This document shows positions 43,083-59,046 of a stretch of DNA of 64,000 bases, one piece after another. Where the stretch lies: positions 1-64,000 of the forward strand of contig NZ_JAUSBZ010000121.1 in NCBI RefSeq assembly GCF_030651755.1. The letters are read 5' to 3'. Source of the stretch: Phenylobacterium sp. Lineage in GTDB: Bacteria > Pseudomonadota > Alphaproteobacteria > Caulobacterales > Caulobacteraceae. Every line of letters begins with the position of its first letter. Position 1 is the first letter of the stretch. The position numbers and the translations under genes were made by a program. The notes under the pieces are model-generated. The model saw only the letters and a list, made by a program, of their open reading frames with translations. It was not told the origin of the DNA and searched no databases.

Positions 43083-43969
43083 CAGGCCTTCTCCAGACCA
43101 ATGAGGCGATGACGCACCGCTTCTGAGAACAGGTCGATCAGGAAGATCATGGCGATGATGATCATCAGGATCGCCAGATAGGTGTCGAACTCGGTGTAGG
43201 TGATGGCCCGTTGCAGCTCGAGGCCGATGCCCCCTGCCCCAACGATGCCGAGGGCTGCGGCGCCGGCCAGATTCCCCTCCAGCCGAATGAGGGCGTAGGA
43301 GGCGTAGTTGGGCAGAACCTGGGGCATGACCCCATAGCGGATCTTCTTCAAGGATCCGGCGCCGGCGGCCTGCAGGGCCTCCATCTGGCGGGGATCGATC
43401 TCCTCGTTGATCTCGGCGAACAGCTTGCCGAGGCTCCCCATGGTCGAGATGGTCAGGGTCAGCACGCCAGCCAGAGGGCCAACCCCGAAGGCCGCCACCA
43501 GGATCAGGGCCATGATCAGGTCCGGCAGGGTGCGGATCGCCTCGAGGATGCGACGCACCACAAAACGCACAGGCGCGAAGGGCATCAGATTCTGGGCGGT
43601 GAGGAAGGACGCGCCAAGCGCCAGAAACGAGCCCATTGCTGTGGCGAGTATCGCCATCTCGACAGTCTGCCAGGCCGCCCGCAGCCAGATCGGCAGAGCG
43701 TAGAACCAGGAATGCAGCGAGCCGCGGGTCTGACGATCCTCCAGCAGGAGATCGGCCTGCAGGCCAGGATTCATCCGCTGCAGGAAGTCGGCCATGCGTC
43801 CCAGGGGATCACCACCGATTTCAGACCCGAAGAACTGGCTGCGCTGGAATGAGACCAGGAGCAGCACCGAGAAAATCGCCAGGCCGACGGCGGCCTGGGT
43901 CCGCTGGCGGATCAGCAGACGTCGACGCTCCCGCTCAAAGGCCTCGACGGCCGGATGCTGGATGCTCAT
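43082..43969 (-). CDS. phnE: Phosphonate ABC transporter permease PhnE (first)
   Basis: The 295-residue permease has an N-terminal membrane segment (AAVGLAIFSVLLLVSF) and a core similar to the second phnE: ILEAIRTLPDLIMALILVAAFG, EALQAAGAGSLKKIRYGVMPQ and GIVGAGGIGLELQRAI. The start overlaps the upstream phnD-like gene by 4 bases. It pairs with the 42261-43082 gene. Confidence 0.92.
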   Translation of the reverse strand: MSIQHPAVEAFERERRRLLIRQRTQAAVGLAIFSVLLLVSFQRSQFFGSEIGGDPLGRMADFLQRMNPGLQADLLLEDRQTRGSLHSWFYALPIWLRAAWQTVEMAILATAMGSFLALGASFLTAQNLMPFAPVRFVVRRILEAIRTLPDLIMALILVAAFGVGPLAGVLTLTISTMGSLGKLFAEINEEIDPRQMEALQAAGAGSLKKIRYGVMPQVLPNYASYALIRLEGNLAGAAALGIVGAGGIGLELQRAITYTEFDTYLAILMIIIAMIFLIDLFSEAVRHRLIGLEKA

Positions 43970-44823
43970 GACCCGACCGTGGGTCCCTGGTGCAGCAGGG
44001 CCTGAGCCTCGGTAGGCTCGAACTCTTCGCCCCCTGCCCTCCCCACGGCCCAGGCGAAGGCCTCCGGCGCCTCGTTATGCAGCGCCACATGGATGCCGAT
44101 CAGTCGAAAGCGACGGTCATCGCTTATATCGGTTCGCACCGACCACGCCTGGTCGGCCACCGGCCGTTGGCGCCAGATGACCCGCAGGTCCTGGCAACGA
44201 TCTTCGCCCGGGTGGTCGCCGCGGCAGAGCTTCTGCCAGGCGCCCGCATGCAGCACCATGGCCTGAGCCTCGCCGGCGCGCAGGCGGACGGCGGCCTCGT
44301 CATAGTCGCGGGCGACGGTCTGCGGACCAAAGAAGGCCTCGTCGGCGCCGTAGTCGGACAGGGCCCGACGAGGGACGTCCAGGCTGGCCTTCAGGGGGCC
44401 GCCGAAGACGAGGCTCGCCCCGGCCATATCCGGCAGGGTCCGGAACGGCGCCCCTTGGGCCGCAGCCACCACCACGGGGATTCGGTTCAGCGCCCCGGCC
44501 GCCCGAACAGTCAGCACATTGCGTGTCTTGCCGGCCACCGGCGCAAAGGCCGCGCCATCAAGCCTGGCCAGATCAATCTCCCCCGCCGCCAGGGCCACGG
44601 CTGCGGTCGCGGCGTCGGCCATCGGACAGTTCAGGACATCGGTCTGGAGCCGCTCAGCCAGCAGATCGAAATAGGCCTTCTGACCGGCGGGCGCGCTGGG
44701 CGGCAGAGGCCCGCAGGGCCCGGCCTCCCCGGTGATGTCGGCGACCCGCAGGGGTAGAACCGGCGTCTGAGCCTGGGCGGCGCTCAACAGGACCGCGCCA
44801 GCGGCCAAGGCGATGCGTCTCAT
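43966..44823 (-). CDS. PhnD-like periplasmic binding protein (second)
   Basis: The 285-residue protein has a signal peptide (MRRIALAAGAVLLSAAQAQ, cleavage after AQA) and reads like a diverged phosphonate-binding protein of the PhnD type: YFDLLAERLQTDVLNCP, GEIDLARLDGAAFAPV, ASLVFGGPLKASLDVPRRAL. It contains paired Cys residues, one in ALNCP-type context and two in LCRGDHPGEDRCQDL. It sits between the lipoprotein phnD and phnE genes with 4-base overlaps on both sides, so the importer probably has two binding proteins with different ligands. Confidence 0.82.
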   Translation of the reverse strand: MRRIALAAGAVLLSAAQAQTPVLPLRVADITGEAGPCGPLPPSAPAGQKAYFDLLAERLQTDVLNCPMADAATAAVALAAGEIDLARLDGAAFAPVAGKTRNVLTVRAAGALNRIPVVVAAAQGAPFRTLPDMAGASLVFGGPLKASLDVPRRALSDYGADEAFFGPQTVARDYDEAAVRLRAGEAQAMVLHAGAWQKLCRGDHPGEDRCQDLRVIWRQRPVADQAWSVRTDISDDRRFRLIGIHVALHNEAPEAFAWAVGRAGGEEFEPTEAQALLHQGPTVGS

Positions 44824-45767
44824 TGGCGCACTCCGCTGCGACGCGCGGCGATGTCTTCGGCGCGGAGCTTGATGATCGGGGCGTAGTGTTCGCGCGTCAC
44901 GGCGGTGTAAGCCGCGCCGTCGGGCTGGCCGATGTCGCGCCAGACCTCCGGATCGTCGTAGGGCAAGGCCGCCATGGCTCCGCGGACCGCGTCAATGAAC
45001 GGCTGCGGACGGTCGGTGCGGACAACAATGGCGCTGTTTGGGATCGGGCCAGCGGTCCAGATGATCCGAAAATCGTCGAGATCGACCACGCCCCGCCGGG
45101 CCATGGTGAAGTGGGCGCCTGTTGTGAAGCCGTGCTCGGGGTCCCCGCCCCCGGCCTGGATAATCGTGGCGTCAAACTGGCCGTTGTCCAGGGCCATCAC
45201 CGCCTGGGTGTGCCCGCCGGCGAAGCTCGACCGGCCGAAGAAGGTGTCCGGATCAATTCCCTGATCACGCATCATCTTTCGGGGGAACAGGTAGCCGGAG
45301 GTGGAGTTGAAATCCACGTAGCCCAGGGTCTTGCCCTTCAGGTCCTGAATCGAACGGTAGGGGCTGTCGGCCATGACCAGCAGGCCGGAATAGTAGCCGG
45401 TGTCACCTTCCGCCTGGCGGACCGTCAGGATCGGCTGGGCCAGATCGCCAATCTGGGCGTCCACATTGGCGTAGCCGCCGCCAGCTATGGTGGCGATGTC
45501 CACCTGGCCGCTGGAAAGCGCCTGGATAGTGCCATTGAAGTCCGAGGATTCGTAGAGCTTGACGGGCAGGCCGGTGGCCTTGCCGATATAGGTCTTATAG
45601 GCGGTCAGGCGCCGGGTGATCATCGGGTCGTCCTCCGACCCGCGGACCGCCATCCGGACCTCCCGCATCTGGCTCTGCCAGGCGCCGTCGGTGGTCTTGG
45701 CTTCGCCGCCGCATCCCGCAAGGCCAAGGCCGATCGCCGCCAGGATCGCACCGGATCGTCGCCGCAT
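44820..45767 (-). CDS. phnD: Phosphonate-binding protein PhnD, lipoprotein
   Basis: The 315-residue binding protein has a lipobox (AIGLGLAGCGG), so it is membrane-anchored in the periplasm. The core matches PhnD: RRLTAYKTYIGKATGLPVKLY, GQVDIATIAGGGYANVDAQIG, KGKTLGYVDFNSTSGYLFPRK, and GHTQAVMALDNGQFDATI. It is the first gene of the minus-strand transport operon phnD-phnD2-phnE-phnE. About 140 bases upstream hold its promoter region, facing the stop of the HWE-type kinase gene. Confidence 0.93.
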   Translation of the reverse strand: MRRRSGAILAAIGLGLAGCGGEAKTTDGAWQSQMREVRMAVRGSEDDPMITRRLTAYKTYIGKATGLPVKLYESSDFNGTIQALSSGQVDIATIAGGGYANVDAQIGDLAQPILTVRQAEGDTGYYSGLLVMADSPYRSIQDLKGKTLGYVDFNSTSGYLFPRKMMRDQGIDPDTFFGRSSFAGGHTQAVMALDNGQFDATIIQAGGGDPEHGFTTGAHFTMARRGVVDLDDFRIIWTAGPIPNSAIVVRTDRPQPFIDAVRGAMAALPYDDPEVWRDIGQPDGAAYTAVTREHYAPIIKLRAEDIAARRSGVRQ

Positions 45768-45909: not shown

Positions 45910-46884
45910 TTAAGCTGGGAAGGTCAGGCGCACCTGGGCGCCAGCGCCATGGGGAAATTCAAGTTGGCCGTCGAGTTGGGTGGCCAGGCTGTGCATGATG
46001 CCGAAGCCCAGACTCCTGCGCCCCTCCAGGTCTGGGATGGTCGCCGGAAAGCCCGGCCCATCATCGGCGATGGTCAGCACCGCTCGCCCATCGCCCCGTG
46101 GGGCGAGATGCAAGGTGATCTGTCCCTCTCGGCGGCTCCCAAAAGCGTGCTTCAGGGAGTTGGTGACCACCTCAGCCACAAGCAGGGAGAGCGTCACCAG
46201 CCGCGTGGTGTCGAGATTGACGTCATCGGCCTCCACCGAACAGGTCACCCCGCCAACGCCTGCGGCCTGGATCAGATCGTCGCAAAGCTCCCGCAACGAC
46301 GCCGACACGCTGAGTTCAATGGTGGCGGGATCGTACAGCCGCCTATGGATCTGGGCCATGGTGACCAGACGCTCGCGGGCCTCGTCCAGAGCTTCCGAGG
46401 CCTGCGGGTTGTCGATGGACCGCTTCTTGATCTGCAGCAGTGCGGCCACGAAGGTCATGTTGTTGGCCACCCGGTGCTGCAACTCCTGAAACATCACCCG
46501 CTGCCGCTCATAAAGCTGCGCGGTCAGGATCTGCTCATGGCCAAGGCTGACGAGGGCCCGGCGCATCAGTTCGATCACCGCGATGTCGACGGCCACGACG
46601 AAAACGAAGAAGACAAGGGTCAGGGCGCTCGCGCCTGACAGACCAAAGCCGGTCGGTGGGATGAAAAACCACCAGGCCGAAAGGCCCGACAAAATCGCGC
46701 AGAGGATCCCTGGCCAGAGCCCCGCCAGGAAGGCTGTGAGAATCACCGCTGGAAAGAAGGTCAGATACGGAAAGCCCGGCGGCAGCACGCCATCCAGGGC
46801 CCAGCGCACATAGAAGCCCAAGCCGGCGCTGAGGATGGCGAGGGCGTAGGCAAGAACCGGGTGCTGCTGAAATATCCGAATCAA
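45910..46884 (-). CDS. Membrane histidine kinase, DUF4118 plus HWE/HisKA_2 type
   Basis: The 324-residue kinase begins with four membrane helices typical of the DUF4118 sensor region (LAYALAILSAGLGFYVRWAL, FFPAVILTAFLAGLWPGIL, WWFFIPPTGFG). It continues with a phospho-acceptor box of the HWE/HisKA_2 type, FQELQHRVANNMTFVAALLQ (His near residue 170), and an ATPase domain (DDGPGFP, GFGIMHSLATQL). No response regulator is adjacent, so it is an orphan kinase. A perfect CtrA-type box lies about 130 bases upstream of its start and may control it. Confidence 0.92.
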   Translation of the reverse strand: MIRIFQQHPVLAYALAILSAGLGFYVRWALDGVLPPGFPYLTFFPAVILTAFLAGLWPGILCAILSGLSAWWFFIPPTGFGLSGASALTLVFFVFVVAVDIAVIELMRRALVSLGHEQILTAQLYERQRVMFQELQHRVANNMTFVAALLQIKKRSIDNPQASEALDEARERLVTMAQIHRRLYDPATIELSVSASLRELCDDLIQAAGVGGVTCSVEADDVNLDTTRLVTLSLLVAEVVTNSLKHAFGSRREGQITLHLAPRGDGRAVLTIADDGPGFPATIPDLEGRRSLGFGIMHSLATQLDGQLEFPHGAGAQVRLTFPA

Positions 46885-47010
46885 TTTGGTTGCCCACCCC
46901 TAGGCGGCCGGTGGGCCTATCGCCGTGGCCATGCGCTCTAGGGCCTCGGAGATTGCTTGTCTATCGGTCCGCCGACAATGCCAAAGGCGAGATAGCGGTC
47001 GCCGGCGCCG

Positions 47011-47025
47011 TTAACCTTGCCTTAA
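47011..47025. promoter_or_regulatory. Perfect CtrA-type box TTAA-N7-TTAA
   Basis: TTAACCTTGCCTTAA, followed by CC, is an exact match to the CtrA full-site consensus TTAA-N7-TTAA. It is the only perfect one found in the intergenic DNA of the window by eye. It could drive a short plus-strand transcript ending at the terminator at 47114, or the kinase gene to the left. Confidence 0.65.
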
Positions 47026-47029
47026 CCAT

Positions 47030-47114
47030 AAACAACCACCTTCGAGAGGTCTTCTTTGAAGACACCCCACCATCACCAACCTTCTCAAGCCCGGCTTCGG
47101 CCGGGCTCTTTTTT
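47030..47114 (+). ncRNA. Candidate small RNA ending at a strong terminator
   Basis: Between the CtrA-type box and the terminator, about 85 bases read through a hairpin (47049-47063) and a C-rich unpaired stretch (CCCCACCATCACCAACC) that could pair with G-rich ribosome sites. No open reading frame is evident. The exact 5' end is not known, and no clear -10 box was seen. The call rests on position, terminator and hairpin only. Confidence 0.35.
47088..47114 (+). terminator. Rho-independent terminator before tRNA-Asn
   Basis: AGCCCGGC-TTCG-GCCGGGCT, a perfect 8-base stem with the very stable UUCG tetraloop, is followed by C and TTTTTT. This is the strongest intrinsic terminator seen in the window. 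No plus-strand gene ends just before it, which suggests an unannotated short transcript. Confidence 0.9.
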
Positions 47115-47195
47115 GACCGGGCCTGTGGATAGGACGCCACCGGAGACTTGCACCGCCCGGCCACCCGGCGTATAGCCGCCGCCCTACGGTGCTGA

Positions 47196-47271
47196 TCCCC
47201 GATAGCTCGGTTGGTAGAGCAGTCGGCTGTTAACCGACTTGTCGCAGGTTCGAGTCCTGCTCGGGGAGCCA
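47196..47271 (+). tRNA. tRNA-Asn (anticodon GTT)
   Basis: A complete cloverleaf is visible: acceptor TCCCCGA / TCGGGGA, D-arm TAGCTCGGTTGGTAGAGCA, anticodon stem GTCGG / CCGAC with loop CTGTTAA (anticodon GTT at 47229-47231), T-arm GCAGGTTCGAGTCCTGC, discriminator G and an encoded CCA (47269-47271). GTT reads AAC/AAU, so this is tRNA-Asn. Confidence 0.96.
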
Positions 47272-47751: not shown

Positions 47752-47996
47752 CAAGGGGCTCCGTCGTTACTCTGAGGTGTGGGCGCGCCGGCCAGGACCA
47801 ACGGGCTACAGGACCATTCTATGCCCTCAACTGAGGTTCGTCAGGCACAGTCGCGGCGTCAATCGCATCCTGTCTGCGAATTCATTTGCACGTGTGCCGA
47901 GTGCGCCTCACAAGCGGCGGCGGTGTCCCAAAGAACGTGGGAATGCAGTCGCGCCGGGCTTTAACGCCGCCGGAGAGGCTGGGGGAAACAAACAGC
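47752..47996. other. Upstream region of the RND efflux operon
   Basis: About 245 bases lie between the glyoxalase start and the RND adaptor start, which diverge. A GGGGGAA ribosome site precedes the adaptor. No TetR or other regulator gene is adjacent and no clear operator repeat was recognised. Confidence 0.4.
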
Positions 47997-49058
47997 ATGC
48001 GTCTCAAGGCGTCTCATATCTTTATCCTCGCCGTTTTCGGCGTCTTGGTGGTCTATTTCGTTGGCATGTCTCTCTTGGGCGGCGACAGCGCGCCAGCCGA
48101 GACCGCCGCCGAAACCTCCGAGACTCCGCAGGTTCAGGTCGCCCTGACCCCAGAGGCCATACGGCCCTATGTCGTCACCCTGCGCGGACGCACAGAGGCG
48201 GCTCGCAGCGTCGTGGTCCGGGCCGAAACATCGGGCGTGGTGGCCGCAACGCCGACCCGGGAGGGCGCCTTTGTCCAAAGGGGCGCGGTGTTGTGCAGGC
48301 TGTCGGTGGACGCCCGCCAGGCCTCCCTCGACCAGGCCAGGGCCGCGCTCCGCTCCCGTGAGTTGCAACACAAGGCCTCGGCTTCCCTGGCCGAGAAGGG
48401 CTATCGCTCCGAGACCCAGGTGCTGCAGGATCAGGCCAGTCTGGATGCTGCGGCGGCGGCCGTCCGGCAGGCGGAAATCGCCCTGGAGCAGGTCAATATC
48501 CGCGCGCCCTTCGCCGGCGTGTTTGACAACCGCGAAGCTGAGATCGGGACCTATCTGTCCCCTGGTCAGCCCTGCGGCACCCTGATTGAGCTGAACCCGA
48601 TCCTTATTGTCGGCAACGTGCCAGAGACCCAGGCCGGTCGAATTCGCAGCGGCGAGCCCGCCACCGCCACCTTGGTGTCAGGAGAAGTCCTGTCTGGCCA
48701 GGTCCGCTTTGTGGGTCGCGAGGCCGACCCCCAGACCCGCACCTATCGCCTCGAGATCATCGCGAACAACCCGCAGATGGCGACCCGTTCGGGTCTCTCG
48801 GCCGATGTGCGGATCACGACGGCCTCTGGTCCCGCGCATCTGGTTCCGCCGTCGGCCATGGTGCTCGACGCCGAGGGACGGCAGGGCGTTCGCCATGTGG
48901 GGCCGGGCGACCTCGTCGTTTTCACGCCCGTGCAGGTGACCGAGGAAACGCCGGACGGCGTCTGGGTGCGGGGCCTGAGCGGAGACGTCAGGCTGATCAC
49001 AGTGGGCCAGTCCTATGTCGACCAGGGCCAGAAGGTTCGCGTGGCGCTGGCCCGCTAG
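47997..49058 (+). CDS. RND efflux periplasmic adaptor (HlyD/MFP family)
   Basis: The correct start is ATG 47997 (MRLKASHIFILAVFGVLVVY), not the 47886 start of the track. The 353-residue protein has an N-terminal membrane anchor, a lipoyl/biotinyl-like domain (RSVVVRAETSGVVAATPTR, FVQRGAVLCRLSVDAR), a coiled-coil hairpin (ALRSRELQHKASASLAEKGY) and beta-barrel/MP domains. It links the inner-membrane RND pump to an outer-membrane channel. The RND gene starts 27 bases later, so both are co-transcribed. No outer-membrane channel gene is adjacent. Confidence 0.93.
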   Translation: MRLKASHIFILAVFGVLVVYFVGMSLLGGDSAPAETAAETSETPQVQVALTPEAIRPYVVTLRGRTEAARSVVVRAETSGVVAATPTREGAFVQRGAVLCRLSVDARQASLDQARAALRSRELQHKASASLAEKGYRSETQVLQDQASLDAAAAAVRQAEIALEQVNIRAPFAGVFDNREAEIGTYLSPGQPCGTLIELNPILIVGNVPETQAGRIRSGEPATATLVSGEVLSGQVRFVGREADPQTRTYRLEIIANNPQMATRSGLSADVRITTASGPAHLVPPSAMVLDAEGRQGVRHVGPGDLVVFTPVQVTEETPDGVWVRGLSGDVRLITVGQSYVDQGQKVRVALAR

Positions 49059-49085
49059 GGCGCGCCGCACAGGAGGCTTGAGAGT

Positions 49086-52000
49086 ATGATCGGTCCGCTG
49101 ATCGACGGCGCCATCAAGCGGCGGAAGGTGGTGCTGGGCGTCACCCTGATCGCCAGCATCTTTGGCCTGTTCGCCTATCTGGCCATGCCCCGGGAGGCCA
49201 ACCCGGACATCGACTTCCCGTTCGTGTCGGTGGTCGTGCCCTATCCCGGCGTCAGCCCGGAGGATTCCGAGCGCCTGCTGGTCAAGCCCCTCGAGGTGGA
49301 GTTGCAGTCCATCGAGGGGCTGAAAGAAATGAACTCGTCCGCCCGCCAGGGCGTGGCCATCGTCAATCTCGAATTCGAAGTGAACTTCAACAAGGACAGG
49401 GCCCTGTCTGAGGTTCGCGCCAAGGTGGACCTGGCCCGGGGCAAGTTCCCCCCGAACGCCGAAGAACCCATCATCCAGGAGGCTAATTTCAGCGGCGAGC
49501 CGGTGATCGGCATCGTGCTCTCGGGCGCGGCGCCGGAACGGGAGCTCTATCGCATCTCCCGGGCGCTGAAAGATCGGTTGGAATCCGCCCCAGGCGTGCT
49601 TGAGGTGAACCTCACCGGCGGGCGCGAGGAGATGCTTGAGGTCACCATCGATCCCCTGCGGATGGAGGCCTACAACGTCACGACCGGTGAGCTGGCCCAG
49701 GTGATCAGCCGCAACAACCAGCTGGTCGCCGCAGGCAGCCTTCGCACAGGCGGCAGCCAGTTTGCGGTCAAGGTGCCGGGGGTCGTCGAAGAGCCGGCCG
49801 ACATCCTGAGCCTGCCGATCAAGAAGAGCGGCGACCGGGTCATTACGGTCGCCGACATCGGCGATGTCCGCCGCACCTTCAAAGAACCCAACTTCATCAC
49901 CCGCTACAACGGGCAGCCGGCCATGTCGCTGGAGGTCTCCAAGCGCAGCGGCGCCAACATTCTTGACACCGTCGACGCCGTCCGCGCCGCGGTGACCGAG
50001 GAACAGGCTCGGTGGCCAGAGACGATCAAGGTCTCCTACACCTTCGATGAGAGCGACTTCATTCACCGCACCCTAGTCGTCCTGGAGTCGGGCCTGCTGA
50101 TCGCCACCATCCTGGTGATGATGATCATTGTCGCGGCCCTGGGCATCCGTCAGGGGCTGATGGTCGGCGCGGCCATTCCGGCCTGCTTCATGCTGGCCTT
50201 CCTGATGCTCAACGCCTCTGGCGTGACCCTGAACCAGATGGTGATGTTCGGCCTCGTCCTGGCCGTCGGCATCCTGGTGGATGGCGGCATCGTCGTGGTC
50301 GAATACGCTGACCGCAAAATGGCCGAGGGCCTGCCCAAGGAAGAGGCCTTCGCCGCCGCCGGCAAGCGGATGTTCTTCCCGGTCCTGAACGGCACCCTGA
50401 CGACGCTCTGCGCCTTCCTGCCGTTCATGTTCTGGAACTCGATCCCGGGCAAGTTCATGAGCTTCCTGCCGTTGACGCTCATGTACGTTCTCGGCGCCTC
50501 GATCTTTGTGGCCCTGATCTTCACCCCTGCCTTGGGGTCGATCTTTGGCCGCAAGACCGCGGTGGACGAGGCGCATCTGGCGGAGATTGAAAAATCCGAG
50601 CGCGGCGATCCCAGGGACATGTCCGGCTTCATGGGCTGGTACGCCCGCGCCCTGTGGACCCTGGGGGCTGCTCCCACCCGAACCTTCGCCGCCACCTTGC
50701 TGATCGTCGTGGCGATCGTCGCCTGGTTCGCCATGTCGACCCATCGCACGGAGTTCTTCCTCGATGAGGATCCCGAATGGGCCCAGGTCTATGTAAAGGC
50801 GCGGGGAAACCTGTCGCCTGAAGCCCATGACGTCCTGGTCCGGCAGGTGGAAGAACGGCTGCTGGACGTTCGCGGCGTCGATTCCATCTACACCCGCTCC
50901 GGGGCCGCAAGTTCCCGCGGCGGCGGCGGCGGGCCGCCGAACGACACGGTTGGACGGCTGCAGGTCGACCTGCTCGACTTCGAAGAGCGTGGCGAGCTTG
51001 GGCTGCGCGGGGCGGACATCGTCAATGACATTCGCACGCGCCTCACCGACCTGCCGGGGGTGCAGATCGAGGTGCGTGAGCCCCAGGGCGGTCCGCCGGT
51101 GGGCAAGGACGTGCAGGTTGAGCTGCGCAGCCAGAATCCAGAAGCGCTGAACGCCGCGGCCGACCTGATCCGCGCGCGGCTGGCCTCCGATCCCCAACTG
51201 TTCGAACTGGAGGATAACCGCACCTCCCCAGGCATCGAACTCAACCTGACGGTCGACCGTCAGGCCGCCGGACGCTATGGGGTCGACGTTCTTTCAGTGG
51301 GTCAGGCGATCCAGTTCGTCACGACCGGCGTGCTGGTGGGCCGCTTCCGCCCCGATGATGCGGACGACGAACTGGACATCCGCGTGCGCTTCCCGCCGGA
51401 GGCGCGCAATATTGCGGCCTTTGACGACCTGAAGATCTCGACCGCCCTCGGCCCCGTTCCGGCCAGCTATTTCATCCGCCAGGCGCCGGCCCAGCAGGTG
51501 ACCACCATCCAGCGACGGGATGGCCAGCGTCTGGTGATCGTCCAGGCTAACGCCATCAAGGGAGTCGCCGCCAACCAGAAGATCGCCGAACTGCGCCCCT
51601 GGCTGGAGCAGGCTGAAATCAGCGATGAGGTTCGCTGGAAATTCACTGGCGCCGATCAGGAGGGCCAGGAGGCCGCGCAGTTCTTCGTGGTCGCGATGGC
51701 GGTGTCCCTGTTCCTGATGGGCATCATATTGCTCTGGCAGTTCAACAGCTTTTACGGCGTGGTCGTCACCCTATCGGCAGTGGCGCTATCCACCGTCGGG
51801 GTGCTTCTGGGGGTGCAGATCAACCTGCTGGGCACCTTCAACTATGTTTCGGTGATCATGCTGGGCACCGGCATCGTCGCCCTGGCTGGGGTGGTGGTGG
51901 GCCACAACATCGTGCTGGTCGACACCTATTATCAGCTACGCCGTTCAGGGTACGCCGCCGACGACGCCGCTGTGCGAGCGGCCACCCAACGGTTCCGGCC

Positions 52001-52322
52001 GGTCATCCTGACCACCGTGGTGACCGTGGTCGGCCTGCTTCCGCTGATGTTCCAGCTGCATCCCAACTTCCGGGTCGGGCATATCGAGTATCGGGCGCCA
52101 GGATCGGAATGGTGGGTGCAACTGTCGGCCGCCGTGGTCTGGGGGCTGTCCTTCGCCACCCTGCTGACCCTCGTCCTGACCCCCGTCATGCTGGCTGCGC
52201 CCAAGGTCTATGGTGAGCGGCTGCGCCGCGCCGCCGGCTGGGGCGGGCGCAAGCTCGGCCTGCGGCCCCGGTCCGGGCGTGCGGCGGCGAACGAGGAAAC
52301 CCTGCCCAGGGCCGCCGAATAG
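49086..52322 (+). CDS. RND-type efflux permease
   Basis: The 1078-residue inner-membrane pump begins MIGPLIDGAIKRRKVVLGVT and has twelve membrane helices with two large periplasmic loops (LEVELQSIEGLKEMNSSARQG and DVQVELRSQNPEALNAAADL). The TM4 region reads GILVDGGIVVVEYADRKMA, where the usual pair of adjacent Asp residues of HAE pumps is reduced to one Asp. A Gly-run SSRGGGGGPPND sits in the second loop. Substrate is likely drugs or hydrophobic compounds. It is convergent with the Atm1-like ABC gene (4 bases apart). Confidence 0.93.
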   Translation: MIGPLIDGAIKRRKVVLGVTLIASIFGLFAYLAMPREANPDIDFPFVSVVVPYPGVSPEDSERLLVKPLEVELQSIEGLKEMNSSARQGVAIVNLEFEVNFNKDRALSEVRAKVDLARGKFPPNAEEPIIQEANFSGEPVIGIVLSGAAPERELYRISRALKDRLESAPGVLEVNLTGGREEMLEVTIDPLRMEAYNVTTGELAQVISRNNQLVAAGSLRTGGSQFAVKVPGVVEEPADILSLPIKKSGDRVITVADIGDVRRTFKEPNFITRYNGQPAMSLEVSKRSGANILDTVDAVRAAVTEEQARWPETIKVSYTFDESDFIHRTLVVLESGLLIATILVMMIIVAALGIRQGLMVGAAIPACFMLAFLMLNASGVTLNQMVMFGLVLAVGILVDGGIVVVEYADRKMAEGLPKEEAFAAAGKRMFFPVLNGTLTTLCAFLPFMFWNSIPGKFMSFLPLTLMYVLGASIFVALIFTPALGSIFGRKTAVDEAHLAEIEKSERGDPRDMSGFMGWYARALWTLGAAPTRTFAATLLIVVAIVAWFAMSTHRTEFFLDEDPEWAQVYVKARGNLSPEAHDVLVRQVEERLLDVRGVDSIYTRSGAASSRGGGGGPPNDTVGRLQVDLLDFEERGELGLRGADIVNDIRTRLTDLPGVQIEVREPQGGPPVGKDVQVELRSQNPEALNAAADLIRARLASDPQLFELEDNRTSPGIELNLTVDRQAAGRYGVDVLSVGQAIQFVTTGVLVGRFRPDDADDELDIRVRFPPEARNIAAFDDLKISTALGPVPASYFIRQAPAQQVTTIQRRDGQRLVIVQANAIKGVAANQKIAELRPWLEQAEISDEVRWKFTGADQEGQEAAQFFVVAMAVSLFLMGIILLWQFNSFYGVVVTLSAVALSTVGVLLGVQINLLGTFNYVSVIMLGTGIVALAGVVVGHNIVLVDTYYQLRRSGYAADDAAVRAATQRFRPVILTTVVTVVGLLPLMFQLHPNFRVGHIEYRAPGSEWWVQLSAAVVWGLSFATLLTLVLTPVMLAAPKVYGERLRRAAGWGGRKLGLRPRSGRAAANEETLPRAAE

Positions 52323-58732: not shown

Positions 58733-59046
58733 TTCAAACGCTTGTTTGCCGCGGTGGGTTGGGGCTAGGCTGGACCTGTCGCCGGGGGTTCCGGCGATCT
58801 ACGTTCTCAGGGCGGGGTGTAATTCCCCACCGGCGGTAATGCCGGGTCTCTAACGACCCGGACGAGCCCGCGGGCGCTTGGCGGCTCCATGCCGCCAAGG
58901 ACGAGCAGACCCGGTGTGATCCCGGGGCCGACGGTTAGAGTCCGGTTATGAGAACCGTTGGACGACACCTTGAGGGCGCGTGCGCCCGCATGGTCCGTCC
59001 AGCGCGCCCCTGAGTCGTGGTTCATCCACCCGTCAGGGAAACGACC
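58733..59046. other. Leader region of ribH
   Basis: These 314 bases hold an FMN riboswitch (58803-58955) and, after it, two alternative hairpins: GGGCG...CGCCC at about 58974-58987 and a longer GGGCGCG / CGCGCCC pairing (58974-58980 with 59003-59009). They may act as the expression platform in front of the ribH start. Confidence 0.6.
58803..58955 (+). promoter_or_regulatory. FMN riboswitch (RFN element)
   Basis: The conserved RFN blocks are all present in order: CAGGGCGGGGTG, AATTCCCCACCGGCGGT, AGCCCGCGGGCG, GACCCGGTGTGAT and CCGACGGTTAGAGTCCGG. The closing stem GTTCTC / GAGAAC pairs the ends. Binding of FMN should turn down the downstream ribH. Confidence 0.96.

Follow-up and report, generated by a model that had tools for sequence, protein, structure and literature searches.

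A candidate CtrA-activated small RNA gene of the CC0196 family in Phenylobacterium, conserved together with its promoter in the Caulobacterales and beyond

A stand-alone small RNA gene was predicted at positions 47049-47114 on the plus strand of the window (the whole 64,000-nucleotide stretch of Phenylobacterium sp. DNA that was analyzed). We interpret it as the Phenylobacterium member of the CC0196 family, activated by phosphorylated CtrA and acting in trans, an explanation to which, taken as a whole, we assign a probability of approximately 0.8. The gene itself, its structure, the layout of its promoter and its conservation are supported by comparison with related sequences. The RNA is not new in kind, since it belongs to an existing Rfam family. 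What seems to be new here is breadth, as judged from the sequence comparisons, in that the RNA and a CtrA-type promoter appear to travel together across the Caulobacterales and beyond; no paper on such co-conservation across the order and beyond was found in the open-access literature.

The predicted RNA is 66 nt long with a start at approximately 47049, as indicated by the match to Rfam RF01519, by a model built from aligned relatives with the 5′ hairpin included (model R1) and by its fold. It begins with a 6 bp stem-loop, GUCUUC-UUU-GAAGAC (47049-47063, GTCTTC-TTT-GAAGAC in the DNA), which is followed by an unpaired C-rich stretch of 24 nt (47064-47087) containing a core, CCCACCAU, that was near-invariant in the alignments and is the presumed interaction site. 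The RNA ends in an intrinsic terminator (47088-47114) made up of the UUCG hairpin AGCCCGGC-UUCG-GCCGGGCU at 47088-47107 and a T tract, CTTTTTT, which runs to 47114. Folding of 47049-47114 gave -24 kcal/mol (z = -6.0) and none of 200 shuffled sequences was equally stable, confirming that the hairpin, the unpaired C-rich stretch and the strong terminator described in the first-pass annotation are all real. The same annotation had stated that no gene ends there, and indeed no protein gene ends at the RNA locus, which has a kinase gene starting at approximately 46884 (minus strand) on one side and a tRNA-Asn at 47196 (plus strand) on the other. Model R1 matched the window at 47049-47114 with an E value of 3e-17, a self-inclusive figure.

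Pairing of GTCTTC with GAAGAC in the 5′ hairpin was preserved in nearly all of the 91 Caulobacteraceae loci, with a loop which varied in length and was mostly 3 to 8 nt. In alignment A2, 95.3% of cells were paired, and both sides of a pair had changed in 12 cells compared to 2.7 in shuffles (0/500). Most of this paired-change signal came from the terminator, the 5′ hairpin varying chiefly through G-U changes. The unpaired core CCCACCAT was near-invariant across families, and a coding function is disfavoured by length differences of a single base in the loop and the C run.

Upstream of the RNA, at 47011-47025 and 62 bases before the terminator stem, is a CtrA-type box of the form TTAA-N7-TTAA (TTAACCTTGCCTTAA). 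This was the sole exact instance on both strands of the 64-kb window, and 100 dinucleotide shuffles of the window gave no perfect box (0 expected), which agrees both with the earlier report of a perfect box and with the rough estimate, made at the time, that none would be expected by chance in a window of this size. The box spans -38 to -24 from the predicted RNA start, a position conserved in relatives, and a -10-like element, CACCTT, is found at 47037-47042.

A promoter survey was carried out on 127 non-redundant loci anchored on the G of GTCTTC. The perfect box was present in 72 loci (48 at -38, 20 at -39, 2 at -40 and 2 at -28), giving 70 loci from many genera and several families with the box at -38 to -40, and no perfect box was found in 268,086 bases flanking the same loci. 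The box was imperfect in many loci, with TTTA and TTAG as the most frequent variants of its first half, and the TTAA of the second half was located at -27/-28 in 112/127 loci. A-11 (102/127 loci) and T-7 (98/127), the two positions at which a sigma-70-type -10 element is most highly conserved, are both present in the window copy, and this pattern is consistent with transcription beginning at the G of GTCTTC (47049 in the window). As a separate observation, the CcrM motif GANTC occurred between -30 and -1 in 24 of the 127 loci where approximately 8 were expected, a mild excess near the -10 element.

Promoters activated by CtrA in C. crescentus are marked by full CtrA motifs whose 5′ base lies near -35 (-39 in ctrA P2; PMC4287350), and the TTAA-N7-TTAA of the window lies near -35 in the same manner, at -38 from the predicted start. 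CtrA was encoded in each of the 12 genomes tested, namely the genome of the window (94% identity) and 11 others; the query sequence was 100% identical to the C. vibrioides DSM 9893 gene. The role of CtrA as activator, like the start site and the timing of the RNA, is something that we infer, and activation of the RNA by CtrA appears well supported at the level of sequence. The suggestion, first made from the letters of the window, that a small RNA gene is present here under a CtrA-type promoter is borne out by the Rfam family and by the fixed -38/-39 position of the box across genera and families.

With the Rfam RF01519 model, matches at E <= 0.001 were obtained in 126 of 199 Caulobacteraceae genomes and matches above the Rfam cut-off in 82 of the 199. 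Model R1 found the RNA in 200/299 Caulobacterales genomes and 46/54 genera (not all matches were read individually); a conservation search of this region in other Caulobacterales had been proposed in the first-pass annotation. In a class-wide sample R1 gave 26 matches among 385 genomes, from which seven weak matches without the core were excluded by eye. The same hairpin, core and box were present in six alphaproteobacterial families outside the Caulobacterales, and most loci of these families also shared the tRNA neighbours.

A second model, R2, represents the core and was built partly from the outside-family loci, so its scores in those loci are not independent, whereas the R1 matches are. 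Strong class-wide R2 matches were confined to the same groups as those of R1, and those with E values between 1e-4 and 1e-3 that lay outside the six families were treated as chance without inspection. A phylum-wide sample searched with R2, which may omit the six families, contained nothing below 1e-4 outside the Caulobacterales. When ten non-Caulobacteraceae loci were scored with the Rfam model at a loose threshold, only some gave a score, at 23-28 bits and under the cut-off. We consider it slightly better than an even bet that CC0196 forms an ancient post-transcriptional arm of the CtrA regulon, widespread in the Caulobacterales and in further alphaproteobacterial families outside that order, activated via a box at fixed distance and acting through its near-invariant CCCACCAU core on conserved partners, with a breadth that an overly narrow Rfam model has hidden.

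The match of the window RNA to RF01519 (CC0196, Caulobacter sRNA) extended over 47053-47110 and model positions 1-58 of 58 with a score of 37.4 bits (cut-off 35), and the 5′ stem-loop was mostly outside the model. On the basis of name and position we identify the RF01519 family as CCNA_R0004 of C. crescentus. This RNA is encoded on the minus strand between CCNA_00197 and CCNA_00196, is expressed from its own promoter and was up 3.7-fold, not specifically, after mitomycin C; its published length is 133 nt (PMC6237742), versus the 66 nt predicted for the window RNA. In C. vibrioides DSM 9893, GTCTTC is located at 1497 and tRNA-Asn at 1631, and the interval between approximately the first base of GTCTTC and the last base ahead of the tRNA is 133 nt, as published for R0004. 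Perhaps the annotated 3′ end of R0004 was set at the tRNA, which would explain the 133 nt. CCNA_R0004 has been labelled 'cell cycle regulated' with a TSS at 210993, its 5′-RACE counts were low (2-13) and its phase was unassigned in the published time course (PMC5988900). The C. crescentus gene was scored with no full and one half CtrA site, and R0004 is missing from a published table of Hfq-enriched sRNAs.

Two neighbours of the RNA could in principle account for the box or for the RNA itself. The box could control the divergent histidine kinase gene at 45910-46884 on the minus strand (HisKA_2/HWE-type, HATPase_c and DUF4118 by Pfam), whose start lies on the opposite strand at a distance of 127 bases, with the adjacent RNA being incidental. 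We find this alternative, which had been raised in the first-pass annotation, scarcely credible, and the kinase was rejected as owner of the box: it adjoins the RNA in just 6 of 91 loci, the box persists without it at a constant distance from the RNA in the rest, and the -10 element is on the RNA side. We therefore assign the box to the RNA. On the other side a tRNA-Asn(GTT), located outside the RNA at 47196-47271 (plus strand; ARAGORN and Rfam), is a conserved neighbour, being downstream of the RNA in 83/91 Caulobacteraceae loci, 75 of them on the same strand and 8 convergent. The RNA would then be a 5′ leader or attenuator of the tRNA, with CtrA setting the supply of tRNA-Asn, and by our inference the published 133 nt of R0004 would reach the tRNA. 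This too we regard as very unlikely, since the RNA is retained both in the 8 convergent loci and in the 8 loci with no tRNA-Asn within 500 bases; moreover, a strong terminator stands between RNA and tRNA and the unpaired core is conserved far more than a leader would require.

Several further features of these neighbourhoods were recorded. A second tRNA-Asn was present approximately 210-300 bases past the first, downstream of the RNA, in seven loci that we listed, that of C. vibrioides DSM 9893 among them, and in others, and other families often carry tRNA-Cys upstream of the RNA as well. In the window, the kinase gene is adjoined by a pair of genes (43966-45767, minus strand) which both encode phosphonate-type periplasmic substrate-binding proteins, perhaps the sensing partners of the kinase. 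An RND efflux pair consisting of a HlyD-type membrane-fusion protein and an AcrB-type transporter is encoded at 47886-52322 (plus strand), and an FMN riboswitch (RFN element, Rfam RF00050, 85.5 bits) is located at 58799-58959 (plus strand).

In the reading that we prefer, that of a stand-alone, CtrA-activated RNA, the box at 47011-47025, which covers the -35 region, is probably bound by phosphorylated CtrA. This would bring RNA polymerase to the -10 element at 47037-47042, with transcription probably starting at approximately 47049 and running to the end of the terminator at 47114. The RNA would accumulate while CtrA is active. Its layout of 5′ hairpin, exposed C-rich stretch and 3′ terminator is that expected of a trans-acting base-pairing RNA, and the CCCACCAU core may pair with G-rich sites in several mRNAs, with or without Hfq. 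The targets and mode of action are our guess, as is the earlier idea that the C-rich stretch blocks ribosome sites.

The target prediction suggested for the C-rich stretch was run as complement searches and against the ctrA leader, and no mRNA target was found. When sought in 8 genomes with at most one mismatch, the 14-nt complement GTGATGGTGGGGTG recurred only at the RNA locus itself, with four scattered extras in three genomes. A 12-nt pattern with one mismatch gave dozens of matches per genome, too many for use, and the exact 12-nt complements inspected were within genes, none at gene starts. Pairing of the RNA with the ctrA leader of its own genome was no better than with shuffled or neighbouring sequence in 10 of the 11 genomes scored; there was one isolated site, at -140 in a single genome. 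On these 11 genomes, CcnA-like regulation of ctrA was rejected.

Two other readings leave the RNA gene in place and differ from ours in how it is controlled or in what it does. The C-rich core could titrate a protein or another RNA and not pair with mRNA at all, which is compatible with the same gene and promoter. The failure to find an mRNA site with a long complement, the near invariance of the core across several families and the precedent of the RNA sponge CrfA (PMC12559287) are all in its favour, but multi-target base-pairing RNAs likewise keep an invariant short seed and the searches made here covered long complements; we consider titration improbable, though the most serious of the competing readings. 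We regard it as distinctly less probable that the TTAA box is a repressing site or one served by a different factor, for example MucR, and not a site of CtrA activation. CtrA half sites over the -10 do repress in C. crescentus and MucR binds many CtrA promoters (PMC4287350), and expression of R0004 was weak in the published time course, but the box at -38 to -24 is off the -10 and in the activating position for full CtrA motifs.

The protein-coding regulon of CtrA is well studied in C. crescentus, but CcnA is the one non-coding target for which a worked-out account was found in the accessible literature. Landt et al. in 2008 reportedly described one sRNA that seemed to be under CtrA control. 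As the RNA has been kept with a CtrA-type promoter in many genera of the Caulobacterales and in outside families, it is a strong candidate for one of the core outputs of this pathway. The gene is short and lies outside protein genes, so that in C. crescentus (CCNA_R0004) it would be straightforward to delete it, to mutate its promoter and to capture its targets. Rfam RF01519 should be rebuilt with the 5′ hairpin and wider relatives added.

Among known systems, alpha-R8 (mmgR, SisA-D) resembles the window RNA in its weak 5′ hairpin, short pyrimidine-rich core and terminator, and gave sub-threshold Rfam scores. Its core is UUUCCUCCCU (PMC12559287); this was absent from the window RNA, which scored 20.4 bits, far under the cut-off of 41, and membership was rejected. 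CcnA (CCNA_R0094) is likewise a CtrA-controlled RNA of C. crescentus with an upstream CtrA box and an exposed C stretch (PMC8959179), but it is 182 nt long and located in the replication origin, and the window RNA has no consistent complementarity to ctrA. The closest relative is CC0196/CCNA_R0004. The RF01519 model begins inside the 5′ hairpin, and the CtrA box which is perfect in the window copy is imperfect in C. vibrioides DSM 9893, but the window RNA matches the family in sequence and structure above the cut-off, and tRNA-Asn lies directly downstream on the same strand both in the window and in C. vibrioides DSM 9893.
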